Shown: piece by piece, positions 32,593 to 35,589 of the stretch
Position numbering within the stretch: position 1 is the stretch's first letter
Layout: each line of letters begins with the position of its first letter
Source: Chloroflexota bacterium
GTDB lineage: Bacteria > Chloroflexota > Anaerolineae > UBA1429
Direction: 5' to 3'
DNA: 39,781 nucleotides
Assembly: GCA_012729455.1 (NCBI GenBank)
Contig: JAAYDC010000025.1
Span: forward strand, 1 to 39,781
Made by a program: the position numbers and the translations under genes
The notes under the pieces: model-generated
The model's database searches: none
The model's input: only the letters and a program-made list of their open reading frames with translations
What the model was told of the DNA's origin: nothing

Positions 32593-34032
32593 CTAGACGT
32601 ACTTCCAGGTGGTGCCGTCGGGGCTATCGCGCAGTTCAATGCCCAGTGCGGTCAGCTTGTCGCGGATCTCATCCGCCAAGGCCCACTGTTTGGCGCTGCG
32701 CAGTTCGCGGCGTGTCTCGAGGAGCAGCTCGACCAACGCGCCGGCCTTGTCGGCGCCCGCACCAGAATCCTCACTGGGCAATTGCAGGCCGATGGCATCT
32801 TCCATAAAGCCCGCCATAAAGGTGCGCACCAGCTCCAGCGATCCGGCGCTCGGGTCACGATCCGCCATGATCGCGTTCATCTCGCGTGTCATATCAAAGA
32901 GTGCGGCAATCGCACCGGGGGTGTTAAAGTCGTCATCCATGCTGGCGATGACGCTGGCAGTGGTAGTCTCTACCAGTTTGGCGATCTCAGGATCGACCTC
33001 GCCTTCGGGGGCGCTGGGCAGGCGCTGGATCAGGCTGTACCACAGGTTGGTGAGGCGCTCAAGGCCGCGCGTGGCGGCGCCGATGGATTCTTCGGTAAAG
33101 TCGATCGGCCCGCGATAGTGGCTTAGCAGCATAAAAAAGCGCAGCATCATCGGGTCCCAACGTTCAAAGGCCTGCTTCAGGGTGATAAAGTTGCCCAGCG
33201 ACTTGTGCATCTCTTCGCCGCGGATAAACAGCATGCCGTTGTGCATCCAGTAGTTGGCAAAGGGCACGCCACTGGCCGATTCTGCCTGGCTGATCTCGCT
33301 TTCGTGGTGCGGGAATTTGTTCTCGACCCCGCCGCCGTGGATATCAAAGGGCTGCCCGAGGTATTTGGTCGACATGACGGTGCACTCGATGTGCCAGCCG
33401 GGAAAGCCCTCGCCCCATGGGCTGGGCCAGTGCAGGATATGCTCGGGGGCTGCGTTCTTCCACAGCGCAAAGTCGGCCGGATCGCGCTTTTCGTCGAGCA
33501 CGTCTACCCGCGTGCCGCTCAGGCTGTCTTCGAGCTGGCGGCCCGAGAGCTTGCCGTAATCCTCATCCTTGGCTACGGAAAAATAAACCGAGCCGTTGAC
33601 CTCGTAGGCATAGCCAGCCTCGATCAGGCGCTGGATCCAGCTGATCATCTCGGTGATGTGTCCGCTGGCGCGCGGCTGGATATCCGGGCGCAGCACATTC
33701 AGGCGGTCCATATCCTCGAGGTAGCGTCGGGTGTAATACTCGGTCAACTGCATGGGCTGCATTTGCTCGCGCTGCGAGCCCTTCAGGATGCGGTCTTCAC
33801 CGCTATCAAGCATGTGGCCTACGTCGGTAATGTTCTGCACATACAGTACGCGGTAACCGCGGTAGCGCAGGTAGCGAACGACCGTATCAAAGTTGATATA
33901 GGTCTTGGCATGGCCGAGGTGGGCGTCGTGGTAGACCGTTGGGCCGCACACATACATGTGCACCCGCCCGGGCTGGATCGGCGTGAAGACTTCTTTTTGG
34001 CGCGAAAGGCTGTTGTAAATGACGAGTGCCAT
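32593..34032 (-). CDS. cysS: Cysteinyl-tRNA synthetase
   Basis: A 479-residue class-I synthetase that charges tRNA-Cys. Zinc and substrate residues include [21 protein letters not shown] (with the HIGH-type HLGH near 36; Cys near 29), [10 protein letters not shown] and FPHHESE. The KMSKS loop is altered to EEMHKSLGN (about 276). The anticodon-binding/DALR part ends with [24 protein letters not shown] lies about 7 nt before ATG 34032. It has its own promoter and a 150-nt leader carrying a 19-codon ORF with two Cys codons. rlmB follows directly. Confidence 0.95.
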
Positions 34033-34087
34033 CTGTTTCTCCCTGGTATAGTTGGGCGTGTTGGTCGGTGAGCAGCGGGAGCGGGGA

Positions 34088-34111
34088 GGGACGCGCTAGG
34101 AGGCGCGCCCC
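34088..34111 (-). promoter_or_regulatory. GC-rich hairpin in the cysS leader
   Basis: On the minus strand GGGGCGCG (34111-34104) pairs with CGCGTCCC (34095-34088), 8 bp with one G-T wobble and an 8-nt loop that includes the leader-peptide stop. The 5' arm starts about 5 nt after the second Cys codon, so a ribosome stalled there would cover it. No T-run follows; instead 34092-34044 is C-rich and G-poor (27 C, 6 G in 49 nt). Confidence 0.5.
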
Positions 34112-34155
34112 GGGCGACAGATGCACACAGGTTGTCGAGTGATTCCAGCTTTCAT
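34096..34155 (-). CDS. Candidate 19-residue cysteine leader peptide upstream of cysS
   Basis: The ORF reads MKAGITRQPVCICRPGRAS with a TAG stop. It starts about 25 nt after the predicted transcription start of cysS and has two Cys codons (TGC at codon 11, TGT at codon 13) shortly before a strong hairpin. The only ribosome-binding hint is GGAACG about 8-9 nt upstream. Leader peptides rich in the cognate amino acid control biosynthesis or charging genes in several phyla, and Cys-containing upstream ORFs are known in mycobacteria. Here the regulatory role is inferred from position and composition. A 20-codon ORF with two Cys codons could also arise by chance. Confidence 0.5.
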   Translation of the reverse strand: MKAGITRQPVCICRPGRAS

Positions 34156-34185
34156 ATAGGTTCGTTCCGATGCGGTTCCAGCCCT

Positions 34186-34213
34186 ATTATAAGCGCACTA
34201 TGGGGTGAGGCAA
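34186..34213 (-). promoter_or_regulatory. Predicted promoter of cysS-rlmB
   Basis: Minus-strand TTGCCT (34208-34213), a 16-nt spacer and perfect TATAAT (34186-34191), in the 192-bp gap between radA and cysS. The leader ORF and hairpin lie between it and cysS. Confidence 0.72.
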
Positions 34214-34224
34214 TTCTGGCAGCG

Positions 34225-35589
34225 CTATTGACTGCCGATGAGTGAGGCGGAGATCGCCTCGGCGACAGTGCGTACCGTCTCGATGTGCAGGCTGGCACCA
34301 TCCAGGTTGAGGGATGCCCCGCTGCGCATCTGCGGGATCACGGCCCGCCGGAAGCCCAGCTTGGCAGCTTCGCGCAGACGGCGCTCGCTGTGCCCGACGC
34401 TGCGCAGTTCGCCCGCCAGGCCGATCTCGCCGAACAACACCAGGTCGGGATGTACCGGCCGGTTCTGCAGGCTGGAAGCAATCGCCACGGCGATCGCCAA
34501 GTCGGCGGCTGGCTCGCGCAGCCGAAGACCGCCCACCACGTTAACGAACAAGTCCTGATCATGGATGTGCAGCCCGACACGTTTGCCCAGCACAGCGGTG
34601 AGCAGCCACAGACGGTTCAGGTCGATGCCGTTGCCAGTGTAGCGCGGGAACTGCAGCACTGAGCGGCTGGCCAGCGCCTGCACCTCGACCATCAGCGGGC
34701 GGGTACCCTCCATGGTTACGGCAATCGTCGAGCCGGGGGCGTGGCTGGGGCGTTCTTCTAAAAAGACTTGTGAGGGGTTGGCAACCTCGTGCAAGCCGCT
34801 TTCGTGCATCTCAAACACGCCAACCTCATCGGTCGAGCCAAAGCGGTTCTTCACACTGCGCAGCAACCGAAAGGCATGAAAGCGTTCGCCCTCTAGGTAG
34901 AGCACCGTATCCACGATGTGCTCCAGTACCCTGGGCCCGGCGATGGCTCCGCTCTTGGTTACATGCCCGACGATCAGGATCGGCACGTTGAGCCCTTTGG
35001 CGAGGTGCAGGAGCGCGTTGGCGCACTCGCGCACCTGGGTCAGGCTGCCGGATGACGACTCCACCTCGGCCAACCGCACCGACTGGATCGAATCCATCAC
35101 CGCCAGGGCGGGGTGCAGCGTTTCGATCTGCCCGATGATGCGTTCGAGGTCGGTTTCGGCCAACAGATAGAGGTTGCCGGCGGTAACTCCAATGCGGTCG
35201 GCGCGCGCTTTGACCTGGGTGGCCGATTCTTCGCCCGACACGTACAACACCGGCTGGTCAGAGCTGACCAATCCGGCTACCTGCAACAGTAGGGTCGACT
35301 TTCCGACTCCCGGGTCGCCGCCGATCAGAACCAGGGAACCCGGCACCAGGCCCCCGCCCAGCACGCGGTTGAACTCGCCGATCGGCACCTGAATTCGCTG
35401 TTGGTCGGAAGCACTGATCTCAGCCAGCGGCATCGCCTGGCTGATGCCGCTGGCTACCTTGCTGGAACCCGCCACCGGGGCCGAGAGCACCAGCGAGTTC
35501 CACTCGCCGCATTCGGGGCAGCGGCCCATCCATTTCGCCTGGCTGTTACCGCACTGCTGACAAATATAGCGCGTGCTAGTTTTAGCCAT
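34225..35589 (-). CDS. radA: DNA repair protein RadA
   Basis: A 454-residue RadA/Sms. An N-terminal zinc finger (CQQCGNSQAKWMGRCPECGEWN) is followed by a RecA-like ATPase core with Walker A GGDPGVGKSTLLLQ (about 93), the RadA-specific KNRFGSTDEVGVFEM (about 246), and a C-terminal Lon-protease-like domain (FVNVVGGLRLREPAADLAIA). RadA is a hexameric helicase that speeds branch migration in recombination. It follows clpC by 3 nt, an arrangement common in many bacteria. Confidence 0.96.
   Translation of the reverse strand: MAKTSTRYICQQCGNSQAKWMGRCPECGEWNSLVLSAPVAGSSKVASGISQAMPLAEISASDQQRIQVPIGEFNRVLGGGLVPGSLVLIGGDPGVGKSTLLLQVAGLVSSDQPVLYVSGEESATQVKARADRIGVTAGNLYLLAETDLERIIGQIETLHPALAVMDSIQSVRLAEVESSSGSLTQVRECANALLHLAKGLNVPILIVGHVTKSGAIAGPRVLEHIVDTVLYLEGERFHAFRLLRSVKNRFGSTDEVGVFEMHESGLHEVANPSQVFLEERPSHAPGSTIAVTMEGTRPLMVEVQALASRSVLQFPRYTGNGIDLNRLWLLTAVLGKRVGLHIHDQDLFVNVVGGLRLREPAADLAIAVAIASSLQNRPVHPDLVLFGEIGLAGELRSVGHSERRLREAAKLGFRRAVIPQMRSGASLNLDGASLHIETVRTVAEAISASLIGSQ

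Follow-up and report, generated by a model that had tools for sequence, protein, structure and literature searches.

Upstream of cysS in the window, by which we mean the whole 39,781-nucleotide stretch of Chloroflexota DNA that was analysed, lies a short open reading frame with two Cys codons followed at a fixed distance by a hairpin, and a tabulation of 74 leaders from 46 genera of Chloroflexota shows this element (TGY-NNN-TGT, 5 nt, covarying GGG…CCC hairpin) ahead of cysS or cysE-cysS. The element, its reading frame, its Cys codons, the covariation of its hairpin and, in other classes of the phylum, the complementarity of the leader to the gene's own Shine-Dalgarno sequence were all computed from the genomes. 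We consider the element to be, with good probability, a cysteine leader-peptide switch, that is, ribosome-mediated attenuation in a translational form. With less assurance, we also lean towards a broader reading, a phylum-wide family of switches in which a free UGC/UGU codon and then an obligate UGU, at a fixed distance from the hairpin, would define exactly where the ribosome stalls, this position being coupled to an anti-Shine-Dalgarno helix that covaries rapidly and masks the start of cysS or cysE.

The cysS leader of the window

A 192-nt intergenic region separates radA (stop at 34225) from cysS, which lies downstream of it on the minus strand and matched its NCBIfam model at 486.7 bits against a cut-off of 340; the features between the two genes are collected in Table 1. 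Since the promoter scan covered 3.2 kb, in which 0.8 equally good sites are expected, the promoter match alone is no proof. The leader stop codon sits within the hairpin loop and 3' arm. Sequence and folding indicate that the C-rich tract holds a CUCCC able to pair with the Shine-Dalgarno sequence of cysS. A terminator scan found no intrinsic terminator near the window leader, none was seen 3' of the hairpins of relatives, and Rfam 15, T-box included, gave no relevant match in the window or in eight leader loci even at permissive thresholds.

Table 1. Parts of the cysS leader region, in window coordinates
Feature	Position	Strand	Basis
cysS, cysteinyl-tRNA synthetase, 479 aa, the putatively regulated gene	32593..34032	-	NCBIfam TIGR00435
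Predicted sigma-70-type promoter: TTGCCT (34213-34208), 16-nt spacer, TATAAT (34191-34186)	34186..34213	-	consensus scan, 10/12 matches
Leader ORF MKAGITRQPVCICRPGRAS, ATG (34155) to TAG (34098-34096), 19 codons; peptide contains VCICR	34096..34155	-	sequence
Candidate regulatory codons TGC-ATC-TGT (Cys-Ile-Cys): TGC 34125-34123, TGT 34119-34117	34117..34125	-	sequence
Spacer, fixed 5 nt, second Cys codon to hairpin	34112..34116	-	sequence; kept in relatives
Constant hairpin GGGGCGCGCctcctaGCGCGTCCC, 24 nt, 9-bp stem; arms and loop GGGGCGCGC-CTCCTA-GCGCGTCCC	34088..34111	-	sequence; covariation in relatives
Core element by covariance model R3	34086..34131	-	38.4 bits, E 1.2e-6 whole genome
C-rich, G-poor tract, hairpin to cysS ribosome-binding site (27 C, 6 G counted over 49 nt)	34045..34087	-	sequence, folding
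cysS Shine-Dalgarno AGGGAGA	34038..34044	-	sequence

Judged alone, the window element is weak and close to chance. Its hairpin is no more stable than those of dinucleotide shuffles (folding z +0.4) and the whole leader also folds at the shuffle level (z +0.2). Among 20000 shuffled copies of the 192-nt intergenic region, 387 (1.9%) contained an ATG open reading frame with CxC or CC, and 3029 (15%) an ATG or GTG frame with any two Cys codons. Chance is excluded by the comparison of the element across the phylum, described below, and not by evidence from the single sequence.

Two further observations concern this genome. At 5822-5738 of the window (minus strand) the element model gave a weak match of 16.1 bits to a long-loop GGGGCGC...GCGCCCC palindrome, which is probably a chance match. 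The genome also carries a second cysS-like gene of about 410 aa (L002, G000:C9:77652-78878), no Cys-leader element being seen in its upstream region, which resembles both cysS and MshC, the cysteine ligase of mycothiol synthesis. It scored 376.5 bits as cysS and 344.6 bits as MshC (TIGR03447, below the cut-off of 485), and similar paralogs occur in several relatives.

Conservation and spread of the element

For the class comparison, cysS was taken from 100 related genomes and the regions upstream were read. Fifteen class leaders had an in-frame short open reading frame with Cys-[Ile/Leu/Thr/Ala]-Cys, exactly 5 nt, and a GGG...CCC hairpin, mostly 26 nt long, and the spacer had the same length in leaders aligned by eye and in those found by models. 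In the class alignment (A2), compensatory changes were present at 7 of 10 hairpin pairs; the covariation score was 0.489, compared with 0.173+-0.035 for shuffled alignments and at most 0.19 with slid partners. The genes upstream differ among element-bearing relatives of the class and family (radA, gltX and others). The leader start of L009, L013 and L116/L120 overlaps gltX at its end or directly adjoins it, an arrangement to be expected if the leader is translated and coupled. Most genomes of the window's class had no match to the element model, and in the many class members without the element cysS often lies directly behind another gene.

These results bear on a preliminary description of the locus, made from its letters. 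The minus-strand promoter, the 19-codon frame, the two Cys codons and the hairpin about 5 nt further on are all where it had placed them, and our recount of the 49-nt tract gave the same figures. It had further proposed a cysteine-responsive leader frame with an adjacent hairpin before cysS, and had named relatives that keep cysS without such a frame as the observation that would count against this; that is not the pattern, as the element is kept in many class relatives, and it recurs in other classes.

A first covariance model, R1, was scanned over the 100 relatives and 396 class genomes, where matches above 35 bits were exclusively cysS leaders and two new cysS leaders (G019, G165) appeared below that score. 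Over 400 phylum genomes, its sole matches outside the class at E<=1e-3 were L121, L122 and L123, each directly upstream of cysE, then cysS, a location that was not an input to the model. The element also lies before cysE-cysS in G073 (L031/L095), a relative of the class that was not part of the first set. Applied to the classes of G688 and G638, which we guess are probably Chloroflexia and Dehalococcoidia, a second model, R2, yielded 41 leaders before cysE-cysS, cysE or cysS. In these out-of-class leaders 97.8% of hairpin cells were paired, with a covariation of 0.528 compared with 0.226+-0.018 for shuffled alignments.

A third model, R3, was built from those 41 leaders only, with zero sequences of the window's class, the leaders themselves having been found and aligned by R2, which did contain window-class sequences. 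R3 matched the window at 34131-34086 on the minus strand with 38.4 bits (E 1.9e-8); across the window's 2.64-Mb genome this copy ranked first, the runner-up scoring 19.7 bits. R3 also recovered most other leaders of the window's class. Over 350 phylum genomes it gave matches at E<=5e-4 in 35, and 34 of the 36 matches at that threshold precede cysE-cysS, cysE or cysS. A scan of genome contigs returned mostly distant cysS genes from other phyla, with the element in one of the 31 loci checked (L124, Chloroflexi); outside the phylum it was absent from the roughly 30 cysS loci checked, and a scan of viral contigs gave no relative of the element.

Model matches outside cysteine genes (G000:C23, L090, L105-L115, L117-L119, L228, L241-L248, L250-L255, L257-L260, L279 and L282) were rejected, as they lie, as far as inspected, within genes or in repeats of the GTAGGGGCG...CGCCCCTAC type. 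Such intergenic palindromes, REP- or MITE-like, occur in Chloroflexota genomes at L228, L241, L244, L248, L250, L259 and other loci, and are a main source of false matches for the hairpin model, G500 alone having nine.

Leader translation and the proposed switch

Of the 74 leaders, 60 use TGC and 14 use TGT for the first Cys, and the middle residue is free (I, V, A, T, Y, S, W, L or G), its codon mostly ending in C. For the second Cys every one of the 74 has TGT; the models favour TGT there, and the first 15 leaders were chosen by eye without that condition. Cys codons of the downstream genes number 110 TGC and 24 TGT (18% UGU). Slow wobble decoding or an RNA constraint are candidate reasons for the invariant UGU. 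In 43 of the 74 leaders the stop lies one codon past the second Cys.

In 16 of 17 class leaders the Cys frame contains an ATG further upstream with no stop in between, compared with 2/17 and 0/17 for the other frames; an ATG or GTG with a Shine-Dalgarno match is present in the Cys frame of 23 of 73 leaders, compared with 2 and 0. These frame-specific starts and Shine-Dalgarno sequences support translation of the leader, as read from sequence. Short leaders with strong Shine-Dalgarno sequences can be read in L271, L274 and L272 (MAKVRLTCACL, MAKARLTCACL and MTRFFPLTCACL). A GTG at 31-33 codons upstream, within the end of the preceding gene, is present in many leaders of the G688 class and suggests translational coupling; among those where it falls inside that gene's last codons, 31-33 before the Cys pair, are L211, L216, L217 and L222. 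In L236, L238 and L233, which belong to the class of G638, the leader ATG follows a -10-like box at a distance of only about 6-10 nt; their mRNAs may therefore be leaderless, like those of mycobacterial polycysteine open reading frames.

The regulatory partner of the leader appears to be the Shine-Dalgarno sequence of the downstream gene. The best duplex of a leader segment with the gene's own Shine-Dalgarno sequence was compared with swaps between genera. For the 50 nt upstream of the Cys codons, own pairs averaged -12.53 kcal/mol and swapped pairs -10.39 kcal/mol (42 genera, z -5.8), or -14.44 and -11.51 kcal/mol outside the window's class (z -6.8), and control target segments stayed at |z| below 2. 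Within the window's class the pairing was not significant (p 0.19), and in the window itself it is weak (-6.0 kcal/mol). Covarying examples are L220 (CCUCCUAUGU with CGUAGGAGG) and L204 (UCACCUCCC with GGGAGGUGA), and in L121 and L227, where CCUUC faces GAAGG, the Shine-Dalgarno sequence itself has changed. Predicted folds of L211, L220, L021 and L280 close the upstream segment on the Shine-Dalgarno sequence around the hairpin. The window fold is less clean: its Shine-Dalgarno sequence is partly hidden by the local CUCCC:GGGAG pairing, which the stalled ribosome would not directly touch.

Other partners were considered and rejected. Pairing of the Cys codons with the cysS start codon, seen in the window fold, is not conserved across all leaders (p 0.60), and no own-specific signal was found for the hairpin arms (p 0.52) or for the region between hairpin and gene (z +2.2) with the Shine-Dalgarno sequence. 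The hairpin had itself been described as the switch in the preliminary description, and here the data favour instead the segment upstream of the Cys codons, paired with the Shine-Dalgarno sequence. Its preference for translational control over an intrinsic terminator is supported, with no terminator at the site and own-Shine-Dalgarno complementarity outside the window's class.

Placing a ribosome on the first Cys codon in the model lowered the Shine-Dalgarno opening cost by 2.37 kcal/mol in the class of G688, compared with 0.34 kcal/mol for swapped upstream segments (p 1.5e-4), and by 1.68 compared with 0.43 kcal/mol in the window's class (p 0.03); in the window the cost fell from 4.0 kcal/mol free to 1.2. 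The same test was not significant for the ten G638-class leaders (p 0.385). The ribosome footprint was taken at its textbook size, and some of the pairing segments are located outside it; because in several leaders about 30 nt separate the end of the pairing segment from the first Cys codon, steric blocking must be assumed. In the window's class the release of the Shine-Dalgarno sequence is weakly supported.

In the mechanism we propose, a ribosome would translate the leader and, when Cys-tRNA is scarce, would stall at UGC-NNN-UGU beside the constant hairpin. There it would cover or sterically block the leader segment just upstream, which otherwise would pair with the Shine-Dalgarno sequence; the freed Shine-Dalgarno sequence would allow cysS (or cysE-cysS) to be translated, and the supply of Cys-tRNA would recover. 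When Cys-tRNA is plentiful, the ribosome would reach the nearby stop and leave, the upstream segment would pair with the Shine-Dalgarno sequence around the hairpin, and translation would be low. The stalling and the sign of the response are what we infer from this arrangement, and the window's own leader presumably switches alike.

A Rho-dependent mechanism was also weighed, in which Rho would load on the C-rich tract once the leader ribosome is uncoupled and would end transcription ahead of cysS, unless a ribosome is stalled on the leader. The window has the 49-nt C-rich, G-poor tract, its genome has a rho gene, the site has no intrinsic terminator, and a similar proposal was made for mycobacterial cys operons (PMC1262725). 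Many relatives, however, have tracts that are not C-rich and G-poor, or that are as short as 19 nt (L021, 4 C and 13 G; L005, 2 C and 6 G; L116, 19 nt), so that the tract, to which the preliminary description had given this role as one of two options, is not the shared mechanism, and the own-Shine-Dalgarno complementarity would be left unexplained. We regard Rho as an unlikely basis for the control, if the best-placed of the alternatives to a translational switch.

Somewhat less likely is that the window copy is a decayed, non-switching relic of an element that functions in other genomes. The shuffle-level folding of its hairpin and leader and its weak upstream pairing would fit decay, but the high score with the independent R3 model argues against it, as do a promoter-like site, frame, Cys codons, spacer and 9-bp stem that are all intact. 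It is more doubtful still that UGYNNNUGU and the hairpin act without leader translation, as an RNA operator bound by a protein or tRNA (e.g., CysS). The rigid geometry of spacer and hairpin would suit such an operator, and the invariant UGU and the mostly C-ending middle codon exceed what coding demands; the frame-specific starts, with and without Shine-Dalgarno sequences, the variety of residues encoded by the middle codon and the lack of an Rfam match such as T-box speak against it. A chance open reading frame and hairpin within a G+C-rich intergenic region, with which the unremarkable statistics of the window alone would agree, is refuted by the phylum-wide conservation with covariation and by the R3 tests.

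Relation to known leader elements

Chloroflexota is a large, mostly uncultured phylum, and literature searches on Chloroflexi/Chloroflexota found no leader-peptide regulation of cysteine genes. The principle is known; what appears to be new, with no matching Rfam family or paper found, is this family with its geometry, the set of genes it precedes and its spread across the phylum. The element combines a compact form with high specificity, almost every strong match in the genome-wide scans lying before cysS or cysE-cysS, and it would join cysteine synthesis (cysE) and tRNA charging (cysS) under one sensor. It offers a natural test bed for why the regulatory codon is UGU rather than UGC, and for the way in which a stall is set by the spacing of codon and hairpin.

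The several cognate codons in a short open reading frame that mark ribosome-mediated attenuation are present as Cys-x-Cys in 74 leaders, and the hairpin with U-run of a classical transcription attenuator is lacking. In erm-type leaders, which work by translational attenuation, a stalled ribosome frees a hidden Shine-Dalgarno sequence; in that case an antibiotic, together with the nascent chain, provides the signal, whereas in the Chloroflexota element the signal would be a shortage of Cys-tRNA.

Among cysteine leaders, the nearest known counterpart is the uORFC-8-2 motif, which lies upstream of cysS in Rhodobacterales and is predicted to act by ribosome-mediated attenuation (PMC8632094). It shares with the window element a short open reading frame with two conserved Cys codons before cysS, but its Cys codons are in tandem inside the first of two stems, followed by an intrinsic terminator with a U-run (PMC8632094). 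Compared with that paper's text, the Chloroflexota element is distinct: its Cys codon and UGU stand one codon apart, outside a single constant hairpin and 5 nt from it, there is no terminator or U-run, and in other classes it precedes cysE-cysS operons.

Polycysteine short open reading frames without a conserved hairpin precede cys operons in mycobacteria and other Actinobacteria (Seliverstov 2005, PMC1262725), and those of mycobacteria are reported to be cysteine-responsive attenuators (Canestrari 2020, as cited in PMC13236596 and PMC9094748). Actinobacterial leaders and the Chloroflexota element have in common Cys codons near the stop of a short open reading frame and cysteine genes downstream. 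The actinobacterial leaders, however, carry runs of Cys codons, in a different phylum and mostly before different genes, whereas the 74 Chloroflexota leaders have, in place of runs without a conserved hairpin, a fixed Cys-x-Cys and a covarying hairpin.
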